Assembly (NCBI GenBank): GCA_021234155.1
Contig: JAJEKV010000020.1
Span: 21,250,018 to 21,314,017 of the forward strand
Length of the DNA: 64,000 bases
Direction of reading: 5' to 3'
Source: Isoetes taiwanensis
Lineage: Eukaryota; Streptophyta; Lycopodiopsida; Isoetales; Isoetaceae
Part shown: one piece after another, positions 7,536 to 64,000 of the stretch
How the letters are laid out: each line of letters opens with the position of its first letter
How positions within the stretch are numbered: the first letter of the stretch is position 1
Program-made: the position numbers and the translations under genes
The notes under the pieces: generated by a model
The model's input: only the letters and a program-made list of their open reading frames with translations
Told to the model about the DNA's origin: nothing
Databases searched by the model: none

Positions 7536-7907
7536 TTTTTCCCTTGCTGCTTTGCTAATACAATCTTAAGGGTTAATGAGTGGATACCTGGAAGAGCTGG
7601 TAATTGTGCATTGGTATCAACAGGAGAGCTGGCATTGGTTCAGAAAGATGATGCGTGTCCCACATGAAATGGAAAATGGAGCAGGTTTATTGAAGCTACA
7701 ACACATGCATCACGTGTGTGCTCCTGAGTCAAGTCACGAGTGGACTAGAAAATATGTGCCCAACTCCTTGCCAAAAGAAAAAGCCATGGAAAAGGTCGCT
7801 GCAAGCTGGGCAGAAATTAAAATATGAGAACAAATCTTATTTTAATCCTTTAAAGGTAAGATCTACTTGCAAATGCCTCATAATAATGACGATATGCTAT
7901 TTCGTAC

Positions 7908-9918: not shown

Positions 9919-10074
9919 GGCAATACAATTATATAGGAAGGAAAGGACAATTGCAAATGTGCTTTTTCAGGATAATAACGGGGCCATATTTTCTGGTTGA
10001 TAGCGGAGCCGGGACGAAGTGGAATTTACCTAATATACAGTGGAACTCGGCGGAGCTCAGGTGGAGGTGCTTCC

Positions 10075-13963: not shown

Positions 13964-15383
13964 CTACCCCTCTAGGGCGCTACTCTTGGGAAAAATGCTT
14001 CCAAGCTTACCGCCGGGTGAGGGGTTGATAGCATCGTTGATGGTGCGGCCTTGAGATTCGCGCATGAAATCCGGATAATGTTTGTCAAGGTCTATCTTCA
14101 TCACCCACGTAGCATCTTCAACTGGTAAGTGTTTCCACTTAACTAAATGTTGCAACATTTGAGTCCTTCTGGTTTGTTTGTAAGCTCGGTCAAGAAGAGC
14201 TTCAGGCACTATCTCGAGTTGCTCTTCTGTCATTTCTAGGAGGGTTGGGGTCTCCAAAACCTCCTCCGGATCAGGGGTGTGTTGCTTCAGAAGACTCACG
14301 TGAAAGACCTTGTGGATCTTCAAGCGGGGCGGCAATTCTAAGCGATATGCCTGTTCTCCAACGCGCTCAATAATCTTGAATGGTCCAGCCCATCTGGGGG
14401 CTAACTTTTTGCAGTTGCCAATCTTAAGCTTGGCTTGCTTCACCTTAATTTTAAGCCAAACTGATTCACCCACCTGAAAAACGCGTGGGGTTCTGTGCTT
14501 ATCGGCTATGCTCTTCTGACGACTGCGCGCAGCCAATAAGTAGCCCCGAACTTCTTCGACCAGAGCCTGCATCTCCAGGAGGAGTTTTTGAGAAACTTCG
14601 ACCTTAGAGACAGGATTATGCCACGTGTCTGGAGTAAGACATTGGTAACCATAGTTTATCATAAAGGGAGACATTCTGGAAGACTCCTGTTTCATGCTGT
14701 TATAGGCAAACTTGACCAGATAAATATAGTCGGCCCATTGTGATTGCTTACTCCACACATAACTTCTTAACATATCCTCTATAATACGATTGGTACGTTC
14801 TGTCTGACCATCCGTTTGAGGATGATATGCTGTACTCATAGCAAGCTTGGTCTGAATGGTGGCAAAGAAATCTTTCCAGAATGTACTCACAAATTTGGGA
14901 TCCCTATCTGATACAATTACCCGTGGCATTCCGTGCAATCTGAAGATCTCCTTGGCAAATAGGAGAGCAGTATCAAAGGCTGTATCCGTGGTACGACAGG
15001 GCAAGAAATGAGCCATCTTCGACAATTTGTCGACCACAACCATTAAGGCATCATACCCCCGGAGAGTTCGTGGAAGGCCGACAATGAAATCCATGGTTGG
15101 CGTTAGGCACATCCAAAGGTTGGAGCTCGCCTGGAATCCTTAACTGCTCAGCTTTGGTTTGCTGACACACTTGACACTGCTTAATGTACCTGGCAATATC
15201 CTTTTTCATGGAAGGCCAGAAATAGCTGGATCGGATCTTAAAGTAGGTCTTCATAAACCCGGCGTGTCCAGCTATAGGGCTATTGTGTGTGTCATGAAGA
15301 ATAAGCTTCCGTACTCCTGAAGTCTGCGGCACACACAACTTATCCTTGTGATATAACAAGTTGCCCTGCGTCGCGCTCTGCAT
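13964..15383 (-). pseudogene. Integrase with HHCC zinc finger, DDE core, GPF module and chromodomain-like end
   Basis: The frame 15383-15051 carries the N-terminal zinc-binding region (HDTHNSPIAGH ... CQVCQQTK). It shifts frame near 15080-15110 into 15112-13964. That second frame holds the catalytic triad context: TMDFIVGLP, then SDRDPKF, then DGQTERTNR. A GPF module follows (APRWAGPFKIIERVGEQAY) and then a chromodomain-like tail (LVKWKHLPVEDATWV). Integrase joins the cDNA copy to host DNA, and chromodomains bias that to heterochromatin in related elements. Domain order and spacing fit chromoviruses. The frameshift makes this copy defective. Confidence 0.88.
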
Positions 15384-15813
15384 CGGTGCGGGCTTCCTTA
15401 GCCAAACTATTCCAAATGTCAGAGAACTCCGGATCCGTGGCCAAGGTCTGCTCTATCTGTTTCCCAAACTCACTAGTGAGCGTAGAAATAGCATTACAAT
15501 GGGTTCGGGTTACTAAAGAATGGCGTGACAATGCATCCGCAACCACATTGTGCTTGCCCGGCCTATACATAATCTCGAAATCATACTCCTCCAAGAATTC
15601 CATCAATCTTCTTTGACGGAGATTGAGATTTGGCTGGGTGGATAAATAACGGAGACTTTGATGATCCGTATCCAATTGGAATCTTCTACCAAGAAGGTAG
15701 TGTCTCCATATCCGCAGAGCACGGACAACGGCTAACAATTCCTGATCATGCGTAGGATATCGCTGCTCTGTCTCATTCATCTTCTTTGAATCGTAGGCAA
15801 TTACCCTCCCCTC
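15340..15813 (-). pseudogene. Ty3-type RNase H
   Basis: EGRVIAYDSKKMNETEQRYP, HDQELLAVVRALRIWRHYLL and DTDHQSLRYL are the usual RNase H signatures of Ty3 polyproteins, followed by the tether RPGKHNVVADALSR. One in-frame stop separates GGVLM, the end of the RT frame, from EGRVIAY near 15811. It would remove the RNA strand of the hybrid during reverse transcription. Confidence 0.88.
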
Positions 15814-16740
15814 CTACATTAGGACCCCACCGGTGGCAATTTTACTGGCATCTGTCGCCACTAGCTTATCCTGTTCAGGATCGGGTAATGTAAGAACTGG
15901 TGCTGATGTTAGGGCATCCTTAAGCTGCTGGAAACTCTGCTGAACTTTCGTCTTCCAGTGGTCCATCCAATCTTTCACCTTCTCATGCTTTGTGAGATTT
16001 GTAAGAGGAGCTGCAATCTTCGCGAAATCCTTTACAAATTTTCGATAGTAGCCTGCTAATCCCAAGAAACTCCGGACTTCGGAAACATTCCCTGGAATAG
16101 GCCATTCCCTTACGCCCTCTATCTTTGCAGGGTCTGTAGCAATTCCCTCTGCGGAAATGATATGGCCTAAATAATCAACCTTCGGAGTGGCGAACTTGCA
16201 CTTAGAGAACTTGGCATAGAGTTGATGACGTCTCAGCTTTTGTAGGGCCAATCTAAGATGTTTCTCATGTTCCTCAAGGGTTTTACTGTAGATGAGAATG
16301 TCGTCGAAGAAGATAACAACAAAATCATCCAAGTATTGTCGGAAGACATCATTCATTAGTCGCATGAACGTTGCTGGGGCATTAGTTAATCCAAAGCGGC
16401 TGCTTGTAAATTCATAATGCCCATACCGAAAGCGTAAAAGCGGATTTATGGATGTCCTCCTCCTTGATCCTTATCTGATGGTATCCGGAGCGTAGATCAA
16501 TCTTTGAGAAATACTTAGCCCCTTGTAACTGATCCATTAGGTCATCTGCCCTAGGCAAAGCATAGCGATTCTTGATGGTATGCTTGTTAAGTTGCCGGTA
16601 ATCAATACACATCCTCAGCGAGCCGTCCTTTTTCTTAACGAAGAGAATAGGAGCGCCAAAAGGCGAAACACTAGGTCGGATGAAACCTAGGTTTAGTAGC
16701 TCTTGAAGTTGCTTCTTAAGTTACGCCAATCGGGGGAGGA
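15814..16740 (-). pseudogene. Ty3-type reverse transcriptase
   Basis: Frames 16612-16412 and 16365-15814 together give the polymerase: [36 protein letters not shown], then after a frameshift near 16415 the [10 protein letters not shown] block and the catalytic FFDDILIYS (usually YVDD or FVDD). [11 protein letters not shown] and [15 protein letters not shown] follow. Upstream frames to about 16740 hold [15 protein letters not shown] sequence with stops. The active-site aspartates are present; the frameshift is the lesion. Confidence 0.9.
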
Positions 16741-38770: not shown

Positions 38771-40317
38771 TGTGACGGCCCCGGCTCATATAACGATGGC
38801 CCGATCAGATACAAATTGGAGATCATCCTCAAACCAAAGATCGCTTTCGTGACATGAGGCCGTCCACCTAACATCGGGCCCTTGATGGTGGCCAAGAACC
38901 CGACGGGGAAGAATGGACGTGTCATTCATCCCGTCTCCCTCGGGATCGTCCTAGCTGCGGAAGCGTAAGCAAACATGAGCACATGACAACAACAATAACA
39001 TACCCACCTCGAAGGGTGGTCCACCATATCACAGAGCTGCAACAACACATCAGTAACATCAACATAACATGGGGAGATCCTACCGTGCTCGGACTTGGGG
39101 GGAAGGACCCGGCGGCTTGGGTCTCCGTGATAACAATGCGCATGTAATTCATGGCAAATGGATTTGGCTGGCATAGGAACATGGCCGTTGGGTAGTCCAC
39201 TCCATCCGCCCCTCCTGTGCATACTTTGCAGATAGGCTGAAAAGTATTGGAGCCTGACCGTAGCCTTCCGGGTGAATAGCCAGAGGGGCTACTACTCTTC
39301 GGGTTGCATCTCCCCAGCCCGATGAGACGGGGAGGAGATCACTCCCCTCCGGAAGGTTCATGCCAATCGGGTGAGCGAGAGCCACCGCTTTCGTAATCGA
39401 CTTGAACCCCTAGAAGATAACGATCACCCAAGAGGTGTCGAGCCCATACCCCGCCCTCACGCAAGGTTGGGGTATTAGGGCCCGGCTCACAACGTTCCCC
39501 GCCATCGCCACGCACTGGAGGGATCAACTGCGTGATTAGACAAGCCCTCCCTTGTCAGCCGGTCTAGCCCCGCCACCCACAGCCAGGCGGGCTCTTATGC
39601 ACAGGCCGGGGCTAAAACTAAGATCATCCATCTACTTGGGCTCTGGGTCTCTACCCCCCTTCCCAATACACAAGAGTGGCGCATAAAATGTCAAAACATC
39701 AACACAACAGAACTGAAATAATAGAATACATCTATTCTAATCTACCTAATCATACATGGTTAGGTTCCTTTGTTAGTGTTTATCATTCTTAGGTGTAGGG
39801 GTATAGCCTATAGCTAAGAATGGATACTAATCCTATGGAATGAGGGCTGAAAACTCGGATCTAACTATCGGATCAACCACTAACCCGCTTCTTGGCTGGC
39901 TCCCACTCCTCTGAAAGCGTCCATGCCGCTGGATTTCGAGACTGCTGGTCTTGGATCGAGCTGCAACCTAGGAATTCCGATTCCTCCGCTACTCTTCAGC
40001 TTAAATGGCGCCCAATCTTTGCTCCAATCCGACCTATAGGGGCTGGAAACCGAAAGGGTTTCCCTTTTAGGGTTTATGCCCCTTTATCCCCACGAATTTT
40101 AGGGCTGGGCCCTTTTGGTCAATGGGCTATTGCCACATGGCAAAAGATATTATATTCACATGTGGCCTTAACATGTGCAATATAATGGTTCACAAGGTCG
40201 TACCCTAGGGTACTACCCTTTACGATCGCCGTGTACATGTCGTCTGAGTCGACATGTACTAGTGACGTGTCAGTATAATATACGTATTCATACCGTATGT
40301 TATGCTGGAACGTCACA
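38771..40317 (-). repeat. 5' LTR of the second element, about 1547 bp
   Basis: TGTGACGGCC ... GGAACGTCACA, followed by the right copy of the target duplication, GTCAT. Confidence 0.92.
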
Positions 40318-40322
40318 GTCAT
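40318..40322. repeat. Target-site duplication, right copy (GTCAT)
   Basis: Matches 27910-27914 exactly. Confidence 0.9.
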
Positions 40323-41490
40323 TATATAGCGCATGCCAAACAAATTTGGTTGCAAGTGCATGTGCCTGTATAAAGGGGTCCTTACATCCAAGCCCGCCAT
40401 CTCTCTTATCCCAGCATAGCTCTTCCCGTGCCGCTTTTGCATTGCCTCCCCAAATAAACTTCCTAATGATGATATGTATCTGATTGTATATACTTTTTTG
40501 AGCTACTATCACTGATGAGAAGTAGATATGTGAGCCAGCAAAGACAACATTGGCCACCGTAACTCTACCAGAGACTGATAGTCCCTTGGTGGACCACATT
40601 CCCATTTTCTTTCTGAGTCTGTCTAAGATTGGGGACCATAGGCCCTTCATGCTATCCGAGAGAGATAGTGGAAGACCCAAGAGCTTAACAGTCTCTCCTG
40701 TTGCCATCACTAGGAAACCAAGTCCCTTAGCACGTGGATTAATATCCCCTTCAAGAGCCCATAGGGTAGAACATTTGTTGGCATTTCCAATGCCAGAGAT
40801 ATCCTTAAATGCAACTAGAATATCAGGGAAGGATTGGAAACAGTTGTCATCAAACCTAAGGAACATGAAAGTGTCATCTGCATACTGCATAATTGTAAGC
40901 TTCCCACCTTGACCTGGAAGAGACAATCCAGACATTGCACCTTCTTCTACTTTGAAGTTGACCATTTTTGTAAGAAGGCTAGCCATAATCACAAACAGAT
41001 AAGGAGGTAATGGATATCCTTGCCTTATTCCTTTCCGGAGATGAAAGAGACCTGAAGACTCACCATTTACGAGCATCAAGGCAGAGGCAAGCTCGCTCAT
41101 GCCCATAGAGAGAGCAATGAATTCAGTTTGGAATCCCATGTATTTCATGACCTCTTGCAAACTTTTCCATCTAAGGGAGTCATAAGCCTTCCAAAAATCC
41201 ATCTTTATAAGAACACATTTTTGCTTTGAAGTCCCTTGCTGCGATATAGTTGTCAAGAATGTACCTATCTGGAAGAAAACTTGACTGTTCTCTACCAATG
41301 ACCCTATTGATAATAGGCTTTACACGGTTGGCAATGCCTTTCATGATAACCTTGTACATAACATTGGTCAAGGCAATAGGCCTCCACTCACAAAGTGACA
41401 AAAAGATCTTGGTATTTTTGGAATGAGAGTTATGAACCCAGCAGCCAGGATAGAGTGTAATGTAGAAGAAGATAAATCAATAAAATAATA
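40318..41490 (-). pseudogene. LINE reverse transcriptase (5'-truncated, split by the LTR element)
   Basis: Minus-strand frames 41401-41180 and 41298-40318 give LINE RT: GFITLIPKI, WRPIALTNVMYKVIMKGIAN, REQSSFLPDRYILDN, then after a frameshift LIKMDFWKAYDS, GIRQGYPLPPYLF and the catalytic QYADDTFMF. The thumb and connection follow (IIRKFIWGG). The copy starts at about 41490 and so lacks the endonuclease domain, as is usual for 5'-truncated LINEs. Its C-terminus and poly-A tail are at 26587-27914 across the nested LTR element. It would have copied its RNA at the target site; the frameshifts make it dead. Confidence 0.88.
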
Positions 41491-42222
41491 TAAGCCCTTA
41501 AAATAATATAAGCTTCTTTATTTCCCTTTTTATTTTTAGCTACATCTTTTCCACTATATTTATATGAACTTGCAATGGTTCAGCACACACAAAAAACCCC
41601 TATTTTTGAATAAACCTTTTTTCCCCCAACAAAAGACTTGTAAAGACTATTTGCTAAATTTCAAGGCCATCAAAGCTCTATAATAATTTTATCTTACAAT
41701 TTTATAGTTTCAAATGAGGGTAGTGAAACATCCAATTACTGGCCATCATTGTCATCAACCTATGCTCCAGATTTATGGAAATGCTAGAGAAATATGCACA
41801 CAATATGCTATAACAAGAGTAGTACAAGAAAAGACAGTAATCAAGAAAACAAACTCAAGCAGGAACAATCATAAGATTTACAGTTGCAAAAGCTTCTAAC
41901 TACCAGGACAAATTTTGGATATGAGTATATGATAATTTTGATGACGGAATTGGAATATTTTAGAGTTCAAAAGGACTTTCAGATACCTCCATTCTTTTGA
42001 GGATGAAGCCAATGTTGGACAAAAGCTTTATGCATAAACTTGAACATGTGCTAATCTTATTCTATTCTATTCTATTCTATTCTATTCTATTCTATTCTAT
42101 TCTATTCTATTCTATTCTTGGGTGGTATGAAACAAACAATGTTTGCTTGCAATATAGAGTATCAGGTTAAAACCTTGTGAAGGTTCAAAATTTCATCTAT
42201 GAAACCAAAAACAAAAATTTAC
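41491..42222. other. No gene recognised; microsatellite inside
   Basis: AT-rich. On the minus strand FMHKAFVQHWLHPQKNG is framed by possible splice sites near 41990-42045, but I cannot connect it to anything. Confidence 0.35.
42057..42117. repeat. (TTCTA)n microsatellite, about 12 copies
   Basis: Uninterrupted TTCTA/TATTC pentamers. The same pentamer tails the LINE at 5.42 kb, but no LINE 3' end is visible directly in front of this one. Confidence 0.95.
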
Positions 42223-44204: not shown

Positions 44205-44333
44205 CTACGGGCAGTAATCCGCTTATTGCGTTTTTGTATTGGGTCCCATAGACTGATTGGTCTCCGTGGACGATAAAAGTACCTTCCTTCCTTCCTTCCT
44301 TCCTTCCTTCCTTCCTTCCTTCCTTCCTTCCTA
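44205..44333 (+). repeat. LINE/SINE 3' end with (TTCC)n tail
   Basis: The last roughly 70 bp before the microsatellite match the LINE 3' end at 5.38 kb (GGGTCCCATAG, ATTGGTCTCCGTGGACG, TAAAA). The tail here is CCTT/TTCC repeated about 13 times instead of TTCTA. No coding part is attached, so it is a very short 5'-truncated copy or a SINE that shares the LINE tail. Confidence 0.75.
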
Positions 44334-47679: not shown

Positions 47680-49586
47680 GTTGGTTCTAAAACTTTTTCT
47701 CTGCTAGATAAACTTTAGCATAGTTAGAGATTTGCGTAGTTTGAGTTGCCCCTATTAAGCATTTTTTAGCCTTTTCACAGTCAGCATTGGCAATGGTGGA
47801 AATCCTCATCTGCTACCCAGGGTATGCATTTAGGTCTTTGCAGTCAGCAATGTCATTTCCTTCTTTATTTTGGCCTGGCTAGGGCAGATCCTGTGTAATT
47901 TTCAACCCATAAGTACTTATATTTTGCAGGTTTCTTAATGCAGCTGTCATGTAACATTTCGCATCCTTGTTTTACAGATTTGTCCTGTATCATTTCATCG
48001 CTAAGTGCAATTGCCCATCATAGAAAGGCTTAGACATTGATCTGTCAAGCAAAGCTATGCCCGCCCTTTTACATTTTCCTGCAGAGCGGTATGGATGGCT
48101 ATCTGCAGCATCTACAATGTCTTCGCATGCATTTGAATGGTAATTTTTTTTGCTTCTGTTATCAGACTGGATTGAAACATGATTCATAAAGGAACTCCAT
48201 ACTTGGCAGAGATATGTGGATTATGGAGAACAATGCATAGCCATGGGACCAGAGAAAAATGAACTGGGACATGCCATCCTTAAAATGACAGGCAAGGGAC
48301 AAGGCAAATTGCCTAGTTTTTACTCAAAAAGGTAACGCACAGTCTGTTCATCTAAATAGCATGCCATTGCTAGATGTTCCTGCACCCTTAATTTCTCCTT
48401 TAGGGCAAGCATATCAATCAATGTGTTTTTCAAGCCGGGATAATGTGGGAATGGCGGGCAGTATATTGGATGCTTCTCTTCAGGGGCAACACGAAAATCA
48501 GTGGTTTGATCCTAGGGTCAGTAGCGGATTTAAAAACTGAGCAACTTCCTTGGCAAACAAAATTATTTTGTACAAAACTAGTCATCTTGGCATGCACGGA
48601 ACATGTCCTTGTTACGCTCCCATAATCTTATTAGAGGCAACCTCCTTTTGTTCCTATAATCTATGCCACTTGGAAGCATCCAAGACAAGATGTACATTGA
48701 TGTTTACAATCAATGTGTCACATATCTCAAATGCAACTCCTATTTCTTAATTGGCTATGCAAGTTAGACCATGTTCTAAAGGCAATTCATCTAGATGCAT
48801 GTACAATAACTTTTTTCCTTGGGATAGAGGGAAATATAAGAGATTAATTAAGGAGTTTTGCATAGCATTTTAAAAGTTTTAAAATTCTGTAAGCATTGGT
48901 TCAACAATCGAACTTCAAGTCTTATTTCACCCATTTGCAATTTTTGATAACTTAGGGGTTTGATGCATATAATAGTCCACTTCTACCATTGTAACGCCAT
49001 GGCCTTGCTTCTATGCTTGCAATAGAAAGTTATTGAAAGCATGGGGTTATGACCACAATGCCGATATTTGAGTGAAGCAGCATCCATATTGTGAAATAAT
49101 CAATTATTTTTTCTATAATACAATGCGACCAATTTTATTAGAAAACACACTAAATGAAACTTACTATTATGTTATTTCACCGATTGGAACATTTGGTGTA
49201 ACACTCTTATGGATGCTTGGACAATGTGATGAGCCAATCTGCCTAGAATTTTGCTCATGATGTGCATGTAAATGTTTGACGTGGAGGATATTCACATAGA
49301 GGTGCACTTGAGAAAACCTTGATGAGATAGCACAAGGCATTGTTCCAACATCGCACGCATTTTCTAACCAATAAGTGAGTCAACGAAGAGAAATGTTCGC
49401 GGTAGCCTTGGCCGCCACGATAAATTTTTTGTATATATTATTATGACAAGATAGTTCTAATAAGAAGGATACAAGTACATTTTGAGGAATTTTTGAAGGC
49501 TATGATATTGGTTGTTTTTTTAACACTTGTCAACACCATCCAATTGTAAGGAAACAAAATGGAGGCGTCAATTTATTAATGTTTGC
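47680..49586. other. No gene assigned; downstream of the seipin fragment
   Basis: AT-rich. It may contain further decayed seipin exons, but none could be identified. The frames at 48443-48625 and 49072-49260 are unassigned. Confidence 0.35.
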
Positions 49587-49830
49587 ATTTACAAGAACTC
49601 TTGAACAATTATATAACATCATTTGGTTGACTATTAACTCATTTTGGCATTCCTTTATTGACATAAATGGCAAAATACGGTGTATCAAATGTCATCTTAC
49701 CCGTTTCCATTTACAAGAACTCTTGAACAATAATATAACATCATTTGGTTGACTATTAACTCATTTTGGCATTCCTTTATTGACATAAATGGCAAAATAG
49801 GGCGTATCAAATGTCATCTTACCCGTCCTT
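49587..49830. repeat. Tandem duplication, about 122-bp unit
   Basis: Two nearly identical copies starting ATTTACAAGAACTCTTGAAC (49587 and 49709) and ending TGTCATCTTACCCG. Confidence 0.9.
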
Positions 49831-51145: not shown

Positions 51146-51606
51146 CCCAGATCCGACATTTACCGCCATGGAAAGGTAACGTGTATGGATGGTTGGCAAA
51201 GGTTCATTTAAGAACGAAGGAGGGGCGTCAACCCTAAAGACAGCACATATGGACCCGTTTGATTATGGCGAAAATGATGCAAGGGACAAGGCCCTGGAGA
51301 CTCATATTAATGCTCTTGAATGCCCCTTCAAGGCCAAAGACCTCAGATTGTAGCACATACAGCCCATTCCCTCTGGTTCTTGTCCTGTGGTCCCGTGCAA
51401 TTTATCTCGGTCGCTCAACTGCCCCCTTTTAGCTTGCTATATCTTGCTACCTGCTTCTGCATGCTGCAGCGGCAGCCCAGCAGCGCCTATTTCTTCAGCT
51501 TTTCCTCGTTGCCTTCTCCTAGTGTAGTCTAGTGTTTGGAGTTTGGTTCCATTTTAAGGTTTAGTGTTCAAAACACTCCGTTTTGTTCGCTCTGTTTCTC
51601 GCGGCC

Positions 51607-53187
51607 ATGGCCAAAGGAGGCCAGGGAGTCTCCCGTTCGGACGACCCCTCTGCAAATCTCTCATCCAGAGCTCCTCCCAAAATGAACTCCAATCGCCCAG
51701 TTCGAATCCTGCCCGATTTTCTCCAATCCGTGAAGCTGAAGTACGTCAAACTGGGCTACCATTATCTGGTGACCCATTTGCTCACGCTCCTCCTAATCCC
51801 GATGATGGTAGCGGTGATGCTGGAGGCCGGAAGGATGAGCCCGGCGGACATAAAGCAGATATGGATCCATCTGGAGTTCAATCTGGTGTCGATGCTGGGC
51901 TGTTCGACGCTGCTAGTGTTCGGGGTGACAGTGTACATGATGTCGAGGCCGAGGCCGGTGTATTTGATGGATTATGCGTGCTACAGGCCACCGGATCACG
52001 TAAGGGTACCGTTTTCGACGTTCATGGAGCATTCCAAATTGTCGGGCAGTTTTGATGAGAAGAGTTTGGAGTTTCAGAGGCGCATTTTGGAGAGGTCTGG
52101 ATTGGGCGAACAGACCTCTCTGCCTCCGGCTATGCATTACCTGCCTCCTCGGCCCTCCATGGCCGCTGCAAGGGCCGAGGCCGAGACCGTCATGTTCGGG
52201 TGCCTCGACGAGCTCTTCTCCACCACCGGAGTTAAGCCTAAGGATATCGGCATCCTCATCGTCAATTGCTCCCTCTTCAACCCCACCCCCTCCCTCTCCG
52301 CCATGATCATCAACAAATACAAAATGCGTGGTAACATCAGATCCTTTAACCTTGGCGGTATGGGTTGCTCCGCCGGTGTCATCTCCATTGACCTTGCTAA
52401 AGATATGCTTCAGATTCATGGTAATACCTATGCTATTGTTGTTAGCACTGAGAATATTACCCAGAATTGGTACTTTGGTAACCGGAGGTCTATGTTGATC
52501 CCCAATTGTCTGTTCCGAGTTGGGGGCGCTGCTATTCTTCTCACAAATAAACGCAGCTTGAAGCGGAAATGCAAATACCAGCTTGTTCATTCTGTTAGAA
52601 CCAACAAGGCTGCAGATGATAAGTCCTTTAGGTGCGTTTATCAGGAACAGGATGAAACCGGCCAAATGGGTGTTTCTCTGTCCAAGGATTTAATGGCCAT
52701 AGCGGGAGATGCACTGAAGACCAACATCACAACTCTGGGACCTCTGGTTCTGCCCCTGTCTGAGCAGCTCATTTTCCTGTGGTTTCTAATTGGGAAAAAA
52801 ATCTTCAACATGAAAGTAAAGGCATATATTCCAGATTTCAAATTAGCGTTCGAGCATTTCTGCATACATGCGGGAGGCAGGGCAGTGATAGACGAGCTGG
52901 AGAACAATCTACAGCTAACGAGGGAGCACTGCGAGGCCTCAAGGATGACACTGTACAGGTTCGGAAACGTGTCGTCGTCATCGATTTGGTATGAACTAGC
53001 TTACATCGAAGCAAAAGGCAGCATGAAAAGGGGCCAGAGAGTGTGGCAGATCGCGTTCGGCAGCGGGTTCAAGTGCAACAGCGCAGTCTGGCGGGCTCTG
53101 AAAACCATCAAGCCCCCTTCCAAAGGTCCCTGGGCCGATTGCATCCATAAATTCCCCGTGGAAATTCCTGAAGTCTATAACTTCTAA
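51607..53187 (+). CDS. KCS: 3-ketoacyl-CoA synthase (very-long-chain fatty acid elongase condensing enzyme)
   Basis: A single exon of 526 residues from ATG 51607 in a strong context (GCGGCCATGGCC); the frame also extends upstream without an ATG. KCS enzymes condense malonyl-CoA with long-chain acyl-CoA at the ER in the first step of very-long-chain fatty acid elongation for waxes, cutin/suberin and sphingolipids. Two N-terminal membrane segments lie at about residues 54-72 and 93-112. MSRPRPVYLMDYACYRP opens the FAE1/CUT1-type domain. The catalytic Cys254 sits in GGMGCSAGVISIDLAKD, His421 in CIHAGG and Asn454 in RFGNVSSSSIWYE, all present. The chalcone-synthase-like C-terminal domain follows. 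Length is normal for the family and no lesion is seen. It is the best-preserved gene here, surrounded by repeats. Confidence 0.97.
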   Translation: MAKGGQGVSRSDDPSANLSSRAPPKMNSNRPVRILPDFLQSVKLKYVKLGYHYLVTHLLTLLLIPMMVAVMLEAGRMSPADIKQIWIHLEFNLVSMLGCSTLLVFGVTVYMMSRPRPVYLMDYACYRPPDHVRVPFSTFMEHSKLSGSFDEKSLEFQRRILERSGLGEQTSLPPAMHYLPPRPSMAAARAEAETVMFGCLDELFSTTGVKPKDIGILIVNCSLFNPTPSLSAMIINKYKMRGNIRSFNLGGMGCSAGVISIDLAKDMLQIHGNTYAIVVSTENITQNWYFGNRRSMLIPNCLFRVGGAAILLTNKRSLKRKCKYQLVHSVRTNKAADDKSFRCVYQEQDETGQMGVSLSKDLMAIAGDALKTNITTLGPLVLPLSEQLIFLWFLIGKKIFNMKVKAYIPDFKLAFEHFCIHAGGRAVIDELENNLQLTREHCEASRMTLYRFGNVSSSSIWYELAYIEAKGSMKRGQRVWQIAFGSGFKCNSAVWRALKTIKPPSKGPWADCIHKFPVEIPEVYNF

Positions 53188-56455: not shown

Positions 56456-56479
56456 ATCCTATCCTCCTATCTATCTATT

Positions 56480-56815
56480 ATATATTTTATATAATAAAGA
56501 AATAGTGTCCGTGAGTTAGTCGGTGAGTTAGTAACTCCACCCCCATCGACGGTAAAGGAGGCGCCACGTGGCGCGATCTGGGCCCTTGGTCGTCAGATCC
56601 TTAAAAGTTCTAGAAGCTTCTAGAGTCTTCTGAAATCTTCTAGGAAGTTCTATAACATTCTAGAAGCTCCTAGAATCGATCCTACAATCTTCTAGAAGCT
56701 CCTCAAAAGCTCCCAAGTTTGGTGGACAAAATTTTTTTGATTTACCACGGACTTGAACCCTGGACATTGCCCCCCAAACCCCCCACCCTTACCACTAGAC
56801 CAACCAGTCTCTTCT
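56480..56815 (-). mobile_element. tRNA-derived SINE-like unit, copy 1, with an HSE-rich insert
   Basis: On the minus strand TGGTCTAGTGG (56802-56792) matches the pol III A box, and GGTTCAAGTCC (56759-56749) the B box, with tRNA-like spacing. The body continues through TTTTGTCCACCAAACTTGGG, a CACGTG-containing block and a GTGAGT repeat to GGACACTATTTC. The 3' end falls in AT-rich sequence. Copy 1 has an extra roughly 100-bp stretch of TTCTAGAAG repeats. Confidence 0.7.
56608..56640. promoter_or_regulatory. Heat-shock-element-like run inside SINE copy 1
   Basis: Seven slots at exact 5-nt steps from 56608: TTC, GAA, TTC, GAg, TTC, aAA, TTC. Five are perfect, including a run of three (TTCtaGAAgcTTC). 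Confidence 0.55.
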
Positions 56816-56925
56816 TGAAAAAATAGGAAGCCCATGTTTAGTTAAGGCTGGGGCAAATGGAAATTCCTTTGGGTAATTAAAAGCCTTGGTGTTAAAAGTT
56901 CGTTCTAGAATGTTCTAAAATAAAG

Positions 56926-57576
56926 CTAGAGAGAGAAGAGGGAAAGACAGAGGGGGAGAGAAATGGAAGAGGAGAGAGGAGAGAGGAGAGAGGAGAGAGA
57001 GGGAGGAGAGAGGGGGGAAAGAAGAGAGAGGAGAGAGGAGAGAGAGAGGATAGATGAAAGGAAAAGAGGGAAAGAAGAGAGAGGAGAGAGAGGGGACAGC
57101 TGAAAGGAAAAGAGGGAAAAGAAGAGAGAGGAGAGAGAGCAGAGAAAGGAGATAGGAAAGAGAGGAGAGAGAGAGGAGGGGGAGAGAGAGGAGAGAGAAG
57201 AGAGATACAGGGAGAGGGGGGGGGGGGGGAGAGGAGAGAGATAGGAAAGAGAGAAAGAAAAGAGAAGAGAGAGAGAGAAAGAGGAGAGAGGGGAAAGGAG
57301 AGAGATAAGAGAGAGAGAAGGAAAAAAGGGGAGAGAGAGGAGATAGGAGAGAGAGCGGAGAGAGAGGAGAGAGGAGAGAGGAGAGAGGAGAGAGAAAGAA
57401 GATAGAGGAGAGAGAAGAGAGATACAGGGAGAGGGAGAGATAGGGAGAGGGGGGAGAAAGGGGGAGAGAGGAGAGAGATAGGAAAGAGAGAAGGAAAAGA
57501 GGGGAGAGAGAGAGAGAGAGAGAGAGAGGAAAGAGGGAAGAGAGGGAAGGAAAGGAGAGAGGAGAGAGAAAGGGGG

Positions 57577-57638
<62 letters not shown>

Positions 57639-58550
57639 GAGAGAAAGAAGATAGAGAGAAGAGAGGAGACAAAAGCTAGAGAGAGAAGAGGGATGCGAGA
57701 GAGAGAGAGAGGGTAGAGACATGGGAGAGAGAGGGGGGAAGAAGAGAGAGGAGAGATAAAAGAGAGAGGAGAGCTGAAAGAGAGAGAGGAGAAGAAGAGA
57801 GAAAGGAGAGAGGGAAGAGAGAGGAGAGAGAAGAGAGAAAGGAGATAGGGAAGAGAGAGGAGAGAGAGAGGAGGGGGAAGAGAAATAGAGAGAGAGGAGA
57901 GAGATAAGAGAGAGAGAAGGGGGGAGAGAGAGAGATAGGGAGAGGGGGGAGAAAGGGGAAGAGAGGAGAGAGATAGGAGAGAGAGAAGGAAAAGAGGGGA
58001 GAGAGAGAGGAGAGAGAGAGAAGAGAGGGAAGAAAAGAGAGGAGAGAGGAGAGGAGAGAGAGAGAAGAGAGAGGGAAGAGAGAGGAGAGAGAAGAGAGAA
58101 GAGGGACAAGAGAAAGAGAGAAAGAGGAATAGAAAAGAGAGAGAAAGATAGAGAGAGAGGAGAGAGATAGGAGAGAGAGAAGGAAAAAGGGGAGAGAGAG
58201 GAGAGAGAGAGGAGAGAAAGGTGAAGAGAGAGAGAGAGAGGAGAGAGGAGAGAGAAAGGAGAGAGGGGGAGAGAGGAGAGAGATAGGAAAGAGAGAAGGA
58301 AAAAAGGGGAGAGAGAGAGGAGAGAGAGGAGAGAGAGGAAAGAGGGAAGAGAAGAGAGGAGACAAAAGCTAGAGAGACAAGAGGGATGGGAAAGAGAGAG
58401 GGTAGAGACATGGGAGAGAGAGGGGGGGAAGAAGAGAGAGGAGAGAGAAGAGAGAGAGGAGAGCTGAAAGAGAGAGAGGGGAAGAAGAGAGAGGAGAGAG
58501 AAGAGAGAAAGGAGAGAGGGAAGAGAGAGGAGAGAGAAGAGAGAGGAGGG

Positions 58551-58581
<31 letters not shown>

Positions 58582-58582
58582 C
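56926..58582. repeat. GA-rich array 1, about 1.65 kb
   Basis: Almost pure purine on the plus strand: GA dinucleotides mixed with GAGAGG and GGAGAGA. Long Ser/Leu/Pro-rich frames on the minus strand (up to 607 codons) and Arg/Glu frames on the plus strand are by-products and not genes. GA arrays can bind plant BBR/BPC GAGA-binding proteins (family knowledge). Confidence 0.95.
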
Positions 58583-58603
58583 CTCAGTCAAAAGTGTTAA
58601 TAG

Positions 58604-58745
58604 GGTCCAAATCGAGGCGAGGCCAGCCGGAGGCCGGCCGAGCCGAGGAATACTACATAAAAAAGAAGGGCATAGGTGGGTCCAGATCGAGGCGAGGCGA
58701 GGCCGGCCGGAGGCCAGCCGAGCCGAGGAACGGTACAAAAGAAAA
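58604..58745. repeat. GC-rich module, two tandem units of about 70 bp
   Basis: Two copies of GTCCA(A/G)ATCGAGGCGAGG followed by GGCCGGCC/GGCCAGCC and AGCCGAGGAA. A diverged relative follows the second GA array at 63800-63880. Confidence 0.8.
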
Positions 58746-58769
58746 GGGCCCTAGTCTCTAATAATAATA

Positions 58770-58985
58770 TAATAAAAAAATAGCGTCCGTCTGTGAGTGA
58801 GTGAGTGAGTATTCCACGTCCATCCAACGGTGGAGGATGCGAGACACGGGCACGAGGGGAGGGTCTGCGGGCCTTGGAGAAAAAGCTCCCAAGTTTGGTG
58901 GACAAAATTTTTTTGGTTTACCATGGACTTGAACCCTGGACATTGCCCCCCAAACCCCCCACCCTTACCACTAGACCAACCAGTC
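58770..58985 (-). mobile_element. tRNA-derived SINE-like unit, copy 2
   Basis: A box TGGTCTAGTGG at 58978-58968, B box GGTTCAAGTCC at 58935-58925 on the minus strand. Body as in copy 1 but without the TTCTAGAAG insert; the CACGTG block is mutated. The flank on the A-box side (AGTCCATGCTTAGTTAAGGC) is also shared with copies 1 and 3, so the repeated segment is longer than the SINE itself. Confidence 0.7.
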
Positions 58986-59104
58986 TTTTCTTAAAAGAAT
59001 AGGAAGTCCATGCTTAGTTAAGGCTAGGACAATGGAAATTCCTTTGCTTAATTAAAAGCTTTGGTGTGAAATTTTTTCTAATATAATCTTATCTATCTAA
59101 TATC

Positions 59105-59347
59105 TATTATAATAAGAAAATAGCGTCCGTGAGTGAGTCTGTCTGTCTGTCTGTGAGTGAGTGAGTCTTCCACGACCATCCGACGGTGGAGGAGGCGCCA
59201 CGTGGCTCCGATCTCATGGCCGCCGGCCCGCGGGCCTTGGCCTCAAAAGCTCCCCAAGTTTGGTGGACAAAATTTTTTGGTTTACCACGGACTTGAACCC
59301 CGGACATTGCCCCCAAACCCCCACCCTTACCACTAGACCATCCAGTC
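59105..59347 (-). mobile_element. tRNA-derived SINE-like unit, copy 3
   Basis: A box at 59340-59330 and B box at 59299-59289, both identical to the other copies. CACGTG block intact; the CTCA/CTGT simple repeat is longest here. It lies directly before the HSE satellite. Confidence 0.7.
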
Positions 59348-59420
59348 TTTTCTTAAAATAATTGAAAGTCCATGCTTAGTTAAGGCTGGGGCCTAATTAA
59401 TTCAAGGATACTCTAGGATG

Positions 59421-59463
59421 TTCTAGAATGTTCTAGAATCTCTTGGAATGTCCTAGAATGTTC
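59421..59463. promoter_or_regulatory. Nine-slot heat-shock-element array
   Basis: At strict 5-nt steps from 59421 the triplets are TTC, GAA, TTC, GAA, TCT, GAA, TCC, GAA, TTC: seven of nine perfect, in alternating orientation. This is the canonical HSF-binding layout. Confidence 0.65.
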
Positions 59464-60568
59464 CAGATGCTCATGAGTAAGCACTTCGGGGCCTAAAAAA
59501 ATAGAAAGTTTCAGCCTAAAAAATAGAAGTTTTTTGAAACTTTGCAAATGCTTAAAATAGAATGTTGTGGGACGTTCCGTGTGCTTATGGGTAAGCACCT
59601 AAGTCTAAAAATAGAAAGTTTCAAACTAAAATAGAAGGTTTTTGAAACTTTGCAAATGTTCAAAATAGAATGTTCGAATGTTCCAAGTGGTCATGGATAA
59701 GCACCCTCAGCCTAAAAAAAATAGAAAGTTTCAGTCTAAAAATAGAAAGTTTTTTGAATTTTTTTTTGAAACTGTGCAAGTGCTCAAAATAGAATGTTAT
59801 GGATGCAGATGCTCATGGGTAAACACCTCAATCCAAAAATAGAAAGTTTTTTGAAACATTGTAAATACTCAAAATAGAATGTGCTAGAATGTTGCAGATG
59901 CTCTAGGGTAAGCACCTCAGTCTAAAAATAGAAAGTTTCAGTCTAAAAATAGAAAGTTTGATTAAACTTTGTAAAAACTCAGATAGAATGTCCTAGAATG
60001 TTTCAGATGCTCTAGGGTAAGCATCTCAGTCTAAAAATAGAAAGTATGGTAGTCTAAAAACAGAAAAGTTTGCTAAAACTTTGCATAAATCTAAAAACAG
60101 AAAAGTTTGCTAAAACTTTGCATAAACTCAAAATAGAATGTTCTAGAGTGTTCCATGTGCTATAGGGCAACCACCTATGCTCTAGAAGCACCTCAGTCTA
60201 AAAGTAGAAAGTTTCTTGAAACCTTGCAAATGCCCAAAATAGAATATTCTGGAGGTGATACTTTGGAATTGGAAGTAAGTGTGATGGGTATGATGGTGTG
60301 TGTAAGCTTCACACATGGGATAATTTTAGAATTGACATACTTTAGAATTGGTAGTAGAGGTAATAGATGTGGCCTCATAGGCATGTGTGAGTATGTTACT
60401 CATGAATGATACTTTGTTGGTAATGGAATAGAAGGTTGAGTAGTATGTGTGAATAAGACTGTGAAATACCATAGAGTGCAGTAGATGTGAGTAACACCTC
60501 AGTCTAAAAATAGAAAGTTTCAGACTAAAAATAGAAAGTTTTTTGAAACATTGCAAATGCTCAGAATA

Positions 60569-60586
60569 GAATGTTCTGGAATGTTC
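60569..60586. promoter_or_regulatory. Perfect four-unit HSE
   Basis: GAAtgTTCtgGAAtgTTC. Confidence 0.65.
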
Positions 60587-60782
60587 CAGATGCTCATGGG
60601 TAAACACCTCGGCCTAAAAAATAGAATGTTTCAGTCTAAAAAATAGAAAGTTTTTGAAACTTTGCAAATGCTCGAATGTGCTAGAATGTTGCAAATGCTC
60701 TAGGGTAAGCACCTGAGTCTAAAAATAGAAAGTTTCAGTCTAAAAATAGAAAGTTTGCTTAAAGTTTGTAAAAACTCAGATA

Positions 60783-60800
60783 GAATGTTCTAGAATGTTC
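60783..60800. promoter_or_regulatory. Perfect four-unit HSE
   Basis: GAAtgTTCtaGAAtgTTC. Confidence 0.65.
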
Positions 60801-61299
60801 CAGATGCTCTAGGGTAAGCACCTCAATCCAAAAATAGAAAGTTTTTTGAAACTTTGCAAATGCTCAAAATAGAATGTTCTGGAATGTTGCAGATGCTCAA
60901 GGGTAGTAAGTGTGATGGGTATGATGGGTGTGTGTAAGCTTCACATGGGTGATACTTTAGAATTGACATAAAGGTAGTAGATGTGGCCTCATGGGCATGT
61001 GTGAGTAGGTTACTCATGAATGATACTTTGTTGGTAATGCAATAGAAGGTTGAGCAGTATGTGTGCAGTAGATGTAAATGATACTTTGGAATTGGTAGTG
61101 TTCTTCTCATAGTAAGCACCTCAGTCTAAAAATAGAAAGTTTCAGTCTAAAAATAGAAGTTTTTTGAAACTTTGCAAATGCTCAAAATAGAATGTTGTGG
61201 AATGTTCCAGGTGCTCATGGATAAGCACCTCAGTCTAAAAATAGAAAGTTTCAGTCTAAAAATAGAAGGTTTTTTGAAACTTTGCAAATGTTCAAAATA

Positions 61300-61317
61300 G
61301 AATGTTCTGGAATGTTC
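61300..61317. promoter_or_regulatory. Perfect four-unit HSE
   Basis: GAAtgTTCtgGAAtgTTC. Confidence 0.65.
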
Positions 61318-62161
61318 CAGGTGGTCATGGATAAGCACCTCAGTCTAAAAATAGAAAGTTTCAGTCTAAAAATAGAAAGTTTTTTGAAATTTTTTTTGAA
61401 ACTGTGCAAGTGCTCAAAATAGAATGTTATGGATGCAGATGCTCATGGGTAAACACCTCAATCCAAAAATAGAAAGTTTTTTGAAACATTGCAAATACTC
61501 AAAATAGAATGTGCTAGAATGTTGCAGATGCTCTAGGGTAAGCACCTCAGCCTAAAAATAGAAAGTTTCAGTCTAAAAATAGAAAGTTTGCTTAAACTTT
61601 GTAAAAACTCAGATAGAATGTCCTAGAATATTTCAGATGCTCTAGGGTAAGCATCTCAGTCTAAAAATAGAAAGTATGGTAGTCTAAAAACAGAAAAGTT
61701 TGCTAAAACTTTGCAAAAACTCAAAATAGAATGTTCTAGAGTGTTCCATGTGCTATAGGGCAACCACCTATGCTCTAGAAGCACGTCAGTCTAAAAGTAG
61801 AAAGTTTCTTGAAACCTTGCAAATGCCCAAAATAGAATATTCTGGAGGTGATACTTTGGAATTGGAAGTAAGTGTGATGGGTATGATGGGTGTGTGTAAG
61901 CTTCACATGACTGATACTTTAGAATTGACATACTTTAGAATTGGTAGTAGAGGTAATAGATGTGGCCTCATGGGCATGTGTGAGTATGTTACTCATGAAT
62001 GATACTTTGTTGGTAATGGAATAGAAGGTTGAGTAGTATGTGTGAATAAGACTGTGAAATACCATAGAGTTCAGTAGATGTGAGAAATACCTCAGTCTAA
62101 AAATAGAAAGTTTCAGACTAAAAATAGAAAGTTTTTTGAAACTTTGCAAATGCTCAGAATA

Positions 62162-62179
62162 GAATGTTCTGGAATGTTC
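62162..62179. promoter_or_regulatory. Perfect four-unit HSE
   Basis: GAAtgTTCtgGAAtgTTC. Confidence 0.65.
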
Positions 62180-62552
62180 CAGGTGCTCATGGGTAAGCAT
62201 CTCAGTCTAAAAATAGAATGTTTCAGTCTAAAAATAGAAAGTTTTTTGAAACTTTGCAAATGCTCGAATGTGCTAGAATGTTGCAAATGCTCTAGGGTAA
62301 GCACCTGAGTCTAAAAATAGAAAGTTTCAGTCTAAAAATAGAAAGTTTGCTTAAACTTTGTAAAAACTCAGATAGAATGTCCTAGAATGTTCCAGATGCT
62401 CTAGGGTAAGCACCTCAATCCAAAAATAGAAAGTTTTTTGAAACTTTGCAAATGCTCAAAATAGAATGTTATGGAATGTTAAAGATACTCATGGGTAAAC
62501 ACCTCAATCCAAAAATAGAAACTTTTTTGAAACTTTGTAAATGCTAAAAATA

Positions 62553-62570
62553 GAATGTTCTGGAATGTTC
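62553..62570. promoter_or_regulatory. Perfect four-unit HSE
   Basis: GAAtgTTCtgGAAtgTTC. Confidence 0.65.
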
Positions 62571-62699
62571 TAGATGCTCAAGGGTAAACACCTCAGTCTA
62601 AAAATAGGAAGTTTCAGTCTAAAAATAGAAAGTTTTCTTAAACTTTGTAAAAACTCAAATAGAAGATCCTAGAATGTTTCAGATGCTCTAGGGTAAGCA

Positions 62700-63522
62700 T
62701 GAGGGAGAGAAGAGAGAGAGAGAGACAAACAGGGAGGAGAGAGAAAGAGAAGAGGGAGGAGAGAGAGAGGAGAGCAGAGAGAAGAGAGAAGAGAGAGAAG
62801 AGAGAGGGAAGAGAGAGAGAGGGGGAGAGAAGAGAAAGGGAGAGAGAAAGAGGAGGAGGGAGGAGAGAGAGAGGTGAGCAGAGAGGAGAGAGAAGAGAGA
62901 GAGAGAGAGACAAAGAGAGAGGAGAGAGAAAGAGAAGAGGAAGGAGAGAGAGAAAAGATCAGAGAGGAGAGAGAAGAGAGAGAAGAGAGAGGGAAGAGAG
63001 AGGGAAGAGAGAGAGAGGGAAAGAAGAGAAAGGAGAGAGAAAGAGAGGAGGGAGGAGAGAGAGAGCTGAGCAGAGAGGAGAGAGAAGAAAGAGAGAGAGA
63101 GAGGGATGAGAGAGGGGAGAAATAGAGAGAGAGGAGAGAGATAGGAGAGAGAGAAGGAAAAAAGAGGAGAGAAAAAGAGGAGAGAAAGGGGAGAGAGAGA
63201 ACAGAGAGGAGAGAGGAGAGAGAAGACAGAAAGGGGGAGACGGAGAGAGATAGAGAGAGAGAAGAGAGAGAGGAGAGAGGAGAGAGAGAGAGAGATAAGG
63301 GAAGAGAGAGGAGAGAGGAGAGAGGAGAGAAAAGGGAGAAGAGAGATAAGAGAGAGAAGAGGGAGAGAGAGAGGATTCAAAGAAGAGAGAAGAGAGGAGA
63401 GAGAAGAGAGAGAGGAAAGCTGAAAGAGAGAGGGGAAAGAAGAGAGAGGAGAGAGAAGAGAGAAATGAGAGAGGGAAGAGAGGAGAGAGAGAGTAGAGAG
63501 AAGAGAGAGAAGAGAGAGAGAT

Positions 63523-63556
<34 letters not shown>

Positions 63557-63790
63557 AGAGATATGGGGGAGAGAGAGAGGGAGAGGAGAGCTGAAATAGA
63601 GAGGGGAGAGGAGAGAGAGGAGAGAAAGGAAAGAGGAGAAAGAGAGGGGAAAGATAGGATATAGAATACAGGGAGAGGGGACAGAGAGAAGGGAGAGAGA
63701 GAGAAAGAGAGAGGAGAGAAGGAGAGAGGAGAGAGGGAAGAGATAGGAGAGAGAAGAGAGAGGAGAAACAGGGAGGAGAGAGGGAGATAG
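62700..63790. repeat. GA-rich array 2, about 1.1 kb
   Basis: Same composition as array 1. Begins directly where the HSE satellite stops (TAGGGTAAGCAT then GAGGGAGAG) and ends at the GC-rich module. The open frames in it are artefacts. Confidence 0.95.
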
Positions 63791-63799
63791 GGCACGTGG

Positions 63800-63889
63800 G
63801 TGGGCCCAAACCGAGCAGTAAGGAGGCCGGAGTTAAACGAGCCGAAAGGAGAAAAAGAAAAAGGCCGCCGCCGGGCCTTTTCTAGTCCT
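63800..63889. repeat. GC-rich module, diverged copy
   Basis: GGGCCCAAACCGAGCAG, AGGAGGCCGG and CGAGCCGAAAGG correspond in order to the module at 58604-58745, and the same CTAGTC-(TA-rich) linker follows. Confidence 0.55.
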
Positions 63890-64000
63890 ATATAATAAAA
63901 AAGAATAGCCCGGCCCCCAGGAGTGAGTGAGTAAATAAGTAAGTAAGTATTTCACACCCCATCTACGGTTGAGGATGCGCCACGTGGCTTGATCTGGGCC
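63890..64000 (-). mobile_element. SINE-like unit, copy 4, cut by window end
   Basis: Shows the 3' part only: AATAGC, the GAGTGAGTGAGT repeat and GCGCCACGTGGC. The A and B boxes would lie beyond the window. Confidence 0.6.

Follow-up and report, generated by a model that had tools for sequence, protein, structure and literature searches.

What role does a dense run of heat-shock elements (HSEs) play in the genome of a lycophyte? The question is raised by a 64,000-nucleotide stretch of Isoetes taiwanensis DNA (contig JAJEKV010000020.1; 'the window' means this whole stretch), in which a repeat array contains many candidate HSEs, that is, runs of three or more alternating nGAAn units kept in phase, the form to which heat-shock factors (HSFs) bind. 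An earlier note on this DNA had proposed that the array could be an HSF-responsive satellite of a plant, analogous to human satellite III. The host is indeed a plant, and an HSF-responsive repeat is still the leading explanation, with motifs that fit the HSE consensus far beyond chance. The satellite part of the claim did not stand: the array is the inside of a dispersed Helitron-type transposon family and not a stand-alone satellite of the satellite III kind. In our judgement the HSEs probably serve a lycophyte Helitron family as a heat-responsive control feature, and the near-invariance of one HSE beside a tRNA-like promoter points to heat as a possible trigger of these elements.

Heat-shock elements of the array

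The sites of the array have this form. Exact four-slot sites in the GAA phase (GAAnnTTCnnGAAnnTTC) lie at 60569, 60783, 61300, 62162 and 62553, just where the earlier note had placed them, and a single exact four-slot site in the TTC phase (TTCnnGAAnnTTCnnGAA) lies at 59421. The expected excess over shuffled sequence was borne out: among 2000 dinucleotide shuffles of 59401-62700, a GAA-phase four-slot site appeared in 3 and a TTC-phase one in 1. Five of the six sites described as having one mismatch do so (60136, 60872, 61190, 61729 and 62375), while the one at 59986 has two; similarly, the proposed nine-slot array at 59421-59463 is present, with seven of its nine slots exact and those at 59441 and 59451 failing. 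As the note had it, the HSEs sit at one position of the repeated unit: they are in register across 23 unit copies (repeat family D7) and exact in five of these. Since the array is for the most part two higher-order copies, offset by ~1593-1634 bp, its HSE copies are not independent. All 15 three-slot HSEs of the window fall into two elements, element A (2) and element C (13), with none found at 1-56470 as compared to 0.63 expected (60 shuffles).

The array lies within a Helitron-type element

The array is the interior of element C, one of several Helitron-type elements arranged head to tail in the window. Four 5' ends of one kind, all on the plus strand, mark elements A, B, C and D (Table 1); the CTAG that ends A directly abuts the start of B, and the CTAG that ends C directly abuts the start of D. 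The 5' end of C aligns with those of A, B and D and with genomic copies, and the order of its parts recurs in loci fetched from elsewhere in the genome. The array, ~3.3 kb long and set between transposon ends, with dispersed relatives, is not the long independent tandem array of a classical satellite.

Helitrons characteristically begin with TC, end with CTRR, lack inverted terminal repeats and insert between A and T without target duplication. The elements in the window have TC starts and CTAG ends, the exact 5' base being ambiguous in some copies. CTAG/T stands just upstream of 13 of 30 non-identical 5' ends, and the bases preceding unjoined 5' ends are mixed. Several fetched loci (L035, L039, L040, L044, L045 and L048) have a 5' end immediately after a 3' end. 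The hairpin of a Helitron usually lies some 10 bases before CTRR; in the three 3' ends that we folded, with perfect 16-bp stems in L032 and L044 and a weaker stem in element C, the stems run into CTAG itself and are not placed ahead of it. Scanning for CTAG with a perfect stem returned 12 places, five of them (L025, L028, L032, L040 and L044) with a clear 5' end next. As for the other seven, L031 continues with similar sequence without the T, L046 with other DNA starting with T, and five have no following end, at least some of these being HSE-type palindromes.

No replication-protein gene is among the listed open reading frames (ORFs) of the window's own elements. Searching the genome with the Pfam profile Helitron_like_N gave at least 150 matches (150 of 1813 candidates were scored, and those listed lie above the cut-off), with matches in 0 of 14 control genomes. 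Two fetched loci carry Helitron_like_N within ORFs on the strand of the array, as expected of autonomous Helitron members with a Rep protein: 1063 amino acids in L030, where the ORF runs off the locus, and 619 amino acids in L037; the helicase part was not seen in either. In element orientation, the 5' end, A box of the tRNA-like block (described below), HSEs and ORF lie at 1511, 1708, 1798 and 2043, and 6929 in L037, and at 1530, 1738, 1829 and 2074, and 6213 in L030. The replication ORF thus begins 4.4-5.1 kb past the first HSE; L030 has a second module (A box 3721, HSE 3807), 2.4 kb beyond which its ORF starts. We infer that in both loci module and gene lie within a single pair of ends. As judged by coordinates alone, four more Helitron_like_N matches (contigs C224, C1025, C1107 and C908) follow an array, a 5' end or a tRNA-like block of the same strand at a distance of ~4-6 kb.

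Genome-wide distribution of HSEs and element copies

We counted patterns, overlapping sites included, across 1,658,258,908 bases in 1110 contigs. The four-slot HSE pattern GAANNTTCNNGAANNTTC occurs at 7617 sites as compared to 428 for the reversed pattern, and the other-phase pattern TTCNNGAANNTTCNNGAA at 10039 sites as compared to 436, while the composition-matched pattern AGANNTCTNNAGANNTCT occurs at 157 sites and its reverse at 338. These reversed and composition-matched counts rule out simple chance as the source of the genome-wide excess. The TTCnnGAA form with a TA spacer is the one preferred by HSFs, and TA fills the spacer at 41 of 50 listed HSE sites, which we count in favour of a control feature. 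Among the sites listed for contigs C1-C11, 17 of 31 clusters of exact HSEs, with 65 of the 92 sites, have a listed tRNA-like block or linked A box no more than 400 bp away.

The element itself is dispersed. We found at least 211 genomic matches to the array unit at 61184-61340 (40 of 1503 candidate places scored), at least 40 to the 5' end (40 of 238) and at least 45 to the tRNA-like block with the first HSE (40 of 1239). Loci were fetched by similarity to the unit or the 5' end, except for L001-L004, which were fetched by an HSE. In 19 of 20 fetched loci of 9.4-9.5 kb the order is 5' end, tRNA-like block, units; the exception, L038, is without a 5'-end match. Furthermore, L002-L004 belong to a second element family that has other ends and carries a tRNA-like block and an HSE array in the same order. 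This second family occupies about 790-2270 in locus coordinates, and in L002 it is flanked by a 52-bp direct repeat (834-885 and 2251-2301). L001 has an HSE cluster at ~1501-1616 in which no tRNA-like block was detected, representing a different source of HSEs.

A fixed HSE beside an antisense tRNA-like block

Between the 5' end of the element and the first HSE lies an antisense tRNA-like block, defined by the consensus sequences of the A and B boxes. The first HSE (59421-59438) is 80 bp upstream of the A box. Neither Rfam nor ARAGORN recognised a tRNA in the window, and a low-threshold scan of the block gave matches at chance level only; no tRNA model recognises the block.

We assembled 46 non-identical blocks with both boxes from the fetched loci and the window. 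A three-slot HSE lies within 160 nt upstream of the A box in 40 of them and a four-slot HSE upstream of the A box in 36; within 160 nt downstream of the B box a three-slot HSE is found in 5. For comparison, 13% of random 160-nt windows from the same loci contain a three-slot HSE. As most of these loci were fetched as element copies, the 40 of 46 is not an estimate for the genome. TTTT follows within 60 nt of the B box in all 46, as expected of an RNA polymerase III (pol III) unit, in a set selected by A and B box.

Searches of the whole genome extend the pairing beyond this set. An A box followed by TTCNNGAANNTTC at 70-100 nt occurs at 1604 places (reversed control 0), and the 75 listed rows used contain 66 distinct A boxes; on the B-box side, the corresponding arrangement at the same spacing is found at 29 places. 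A four-slot HSE lies 30-60 nt beyond TAGTTAAGG at 468 places (control 1). Exact tRNA-like blocks number 2250 (control 3), and 49 of the first 100 listed have a linked HSE.

Conservation of the first HSE

The set of first HSEs comprises 47 non-identical sequences from 51 places; 34 share the flank of element C, none of them from L001-L004, and changes were counted on a tree of these 34 copies. The block at 59412-59438 has 4 changes in 27 columns, as compared to 107 in 88 flanking columns (39 in the 41 upstream and 68 in the 47 downstream), so that the first HSE, at the head of the array, is about 8-fold less changed than its flanks. Once near-identical copies are left out, 27 remain, in which 18-bp windows on the block show 0-2 changes, the median window having 15; in these copies the block has 1 change in 9 C/G columns versus 108 in 74, and 1 in 18 A/T columns versus 86 in 97. 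No stretches of the 225 bp examined are better conserved than the A box and the HSE block. In 32 of 34 copies (31 by a stricter count) the first HSE is intact, with 3 changes; the third, already degenerate in the reference copy, is intact in 7 of 34 with 32 changes. For the A box, 33 of 34 copies are exact, and its 11 columns have undergone a single change. The 11 columns of the B box have undergone 15, with the consensus fitting in 28 of 34 copies, which disfavours a strictly kept pol III unit.

Weighing the explanations

Several observations weigh against the HSEs being a control feature. Comparing 22 of the 25 array units (all but the array head and two half units), diversity is 0.160 in the HSE core, 0.158 in the nn spacers and 0.241 in other columns (0.204 in the inner part), and the higher-order pairs differ at 4 of 132 core, 2 of 66 nn and 47 of 948 other unit sites. 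The second HSE is intact in 26 of 34 copies with 25 changes versus 3 for the first. The nn letters of the conserved block vary no more than its GAA and TTC, so that the constraint need not reflect HSF. Of the HSE clusters on C1-C11, 14 of 31 are not near an exact tRNA-like block; conversely, 51 of the first 100 listed exact blocks lack a linked HSE. Finally, it is a presumption that in the fetched loci the replication gene lies between the same ends as the HSE module.

Since HSE letters diverge like their neighbours, the array HSEs look neutral: 21 of 87 windows in the units are more conserved than the HSE (permutation 0.11). Neither the unit diversity nor the comparison of higher-order pairs shows selection on all array HSEs. 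The expectation of the earlier note that HSE positions would be less diverged than the rest of the unit thus failed for the array units and held for the fixed HSE at 59421-59438. The apparent neutrality of the array units and the constraint on the first HSE point in opposite directions, and both stand.

How, then, could such motifs arise without HSF? They may be a by-product of a 10-bp palindromic minisatellite (TTCTAGAATG) amplified by the element family, in which case the first copy would have been kept by a mutational cold spot, recent ancestry or another use. About 1 in 315 random 10-bp tandem units yields a perfect alternating GAA/TTC array, which makes such an origin easy in a large genome, and in view of this figure we keep chance as a competing account of how the array arose. 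This explanation, which we consider unlikely yet a serious competitor, agrees with array units free of HSE-specific constraint and with first-HSE spacers conserved as much as the core, but not with an excess that is specific to the HSE pattern among the patterns counted, nor with a first HSE far less changed than the flanks within the same copies, nor with a place upstream of the A box that recurs in a second family with other ends and at 1604 places. Alternatively, the conserved block could serve a factor other than HSF, be it as an upstream element of the tRNA-like promoter, a site for the Helitron replication protein or a site for another plant factor. The strong conservation of both the A box and the HSE block within the 225 bp would suit this explanation, as would the fact that the nn letters of the block are also kept; the genome-wide sites, in which the search pattern fixes GAA and TTC, vary in the GAA-nn-TTC spacer, so that no single long site is common to all, and the HSE consensus form is matched in 31 or 32 of 34 copies. 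On balance we regard it as quite improbable.

The array as an HSF-binding satellite, titrating HSF or transcribed as a long repeat RNA, is in our view very improbable: many HSEs are clustered in the array and in the fetched loci, but the arrays lie inside dispersed transposons and their HSEs diverge like the rest. On these two findings we reject the satellite and titration reading as the main account, and nothing in our analysis supports the titration of HSF that the earlier note had envisaged.

We therefore return to a heat-responsive control feature of the Helitron family, and set out how it would work; HSF binding, heat induction, the polymerase used and any effects on mobility or neighbouring genes are predictions from sequence. 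Heat-activated HSF trimers would bind the fixed HSE, ~320 bp into the element, and raise transcription from the 5' region. This could act on the downstream replication gene, as has been suggested for Caenorhabditis, and/or on a tRNA-like RNA, which would start ~80 bp from the HSE and run towards the 5' end of the element. Heat would thereby favour mobilisation, and nearby genes may become heat-responsive. The array, in which an HSE-bearing unit has been copied many times, is decaying, and its copies would be extra, dispensable sites. A bolder version, which we offer tentatively and would not ourselves expect to hold, envisages a mobile cassette whose HSF array, ~80-100 bp upstream of a tRNA-like promoter of the pol III type, drives or licenses that promoter. 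Such a cassette would be carried antisense at the heads of Helitrons and by at least one differently ended family, at more than 1000 places, the HSE and A box being kept while the rest drifts, and heat would set off a burst of short antisense tRNA-like RNA from the 5' region of the transposon.

Coordinates and other features of the window

The features of elements A to D are collected in Table 1.

Table 1. Helitron-type elements of the window and their parts
Feature	Position	Strand	Basis or remarks
Element C, Helitron-type, holds the array	59103..63885	+	5' end near 59096-59103; 3' CTAG 63882-63885
Element C 5' terminal region with G-box-like CCACGTGG	59103..59240	+	Alignment of 5' ends
Antisense tRNA-like block	59269..59340	-	A box 59340-59330, B box 59299-59289, TTTT 59272-59269
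Conserved block with first, fixed four-slot HSE (59421-59438)	59412..59438	+	Few changes among copies
Nine-slot HSE array, 10-bp period	59421..59463	+	7/9 slots exact
Array of ~89- and 109-bp units, two higher-order copies, TG-rich spacers	59480..62700	+	HSEs at one unit position
GA-rich tract of element C	62701..63787	+	
Element C 3' end, hairpin running into CTAG	63856..63885	+	Element D directly after
Sister element A	56470..58754	+	5' end (near 56470), tRNA-like block, GA-rich tract, 3' CTAG 58751-58754
Element B, incomplete	58755..59095	+	5' end and tRNA-like block; without three-slot HSE
Element D 5' end, cut by window end	63886..64000	+	

Element A contains a 10-bp array of the TTCTAGAAGC type at 56608-56700 and a three-slot HSE at 56903. 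Comparable to the former is an extra run of exact HSEs between the tRNA-like block and the 5' end in L041 (7965-8041) and L039 (7717-7798). Long GA-rich tracts occupy the same relative place, after the HSE part, in A (56928-58581) and C (62701-63787). The G-box-like CCACGTGG lies close to the 5' ends of A (near 56568), C (59204) and D (63982) and is absent from B.

Elsewhere, the window carries an intact-looking 3-ketoacyl-CoA synthase gene at 51583-53187, with a best named identity of 80% to Selaginella moellendorffii and a grouping with Selaginella in a tree of 27 rows (support 97/88). On the minus strand, 13964-16365 and 40303-41298 hold Ty3/gypsy pieces with integrase, chromodomain and reverse transcriptase as well as a second reverse transcriptase ORF. 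Simple arrays comprise (TATTC)12 at 42058-42118, (CCTT)13 at 44282-44332 and two copies of a 122-bp unit at 49581-49826.

Relation to known systems and significance

The analogy to satellite III drawn by the earlier note does not fit an array that is not satellite-like, and the HSE-bearing Helitrons of Caenorhabditis are a closer precedent. According to Garrigues et al. 2019 (PMC6927752), these Helitrons carry the majority of C. elegans HSEs and respond to heat, with HSF-1 binding shown; HSE enrichment in Helitrons was limited to Caenorhabditis among the metazoan genomes scanned, and the association was considered possibly restricted to that genus. HSE clusters and a replication protein in larger members are common to both systems, and the Isoetes elements may likewise supply a large share of the HSEs of their genome (PMC6927752). 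The Caenorhabditis elements differ in their nematode host and in that HSF-1 binding and heat induction were shown there; the likeness seen here is one of features, and a tRNA-like block beside the HSE is not mentioned in the parts of that paper available (PMC6927752). The Isoetes elements thus appear convergent with the Caenorhabditis Helitrons, and the tRNA-like/HSE pairing would be the new part.

Human Alu repeats and satellite III are likewise bound by HSF1 in heat, and Alu has a pol III promoter; they are a retroposon and a pericentric satellite, and the available parts of the sources describe no HSE array in a set position ahead of an A box (PMC3334603, PMC9032817). Among plants, ONSEN and other heat-responsive Copia elements of Brassicaceae are transposons with HSF-bound HSEs (PMC8725346). 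The open-access literature, outside of which most subscription journals lie, yielded no report of HSEs in plant Helitrons or satellites, or of an HSE/tRNA-like pairing. Plant cases of the ONSEN type are long terminal repeat (LTR) retrotransposons with their HSEs in the LTR, without Helitron ends or an internal HSE array.

If our reading is correct, plant Helitron-type elements rich in perfect HSEs would represent an independent appearance of the Caenorhabditis strategy, and a natural experiment on the capture of the heat-shock response by transposons. A question raised by the fixed HSE/tRNA-like pairing is whether HSF can control a pol III-type transposon promoter; were the mobile cassette to prove real, it would tie both pol III and Helitron activity to the heat-shock response.

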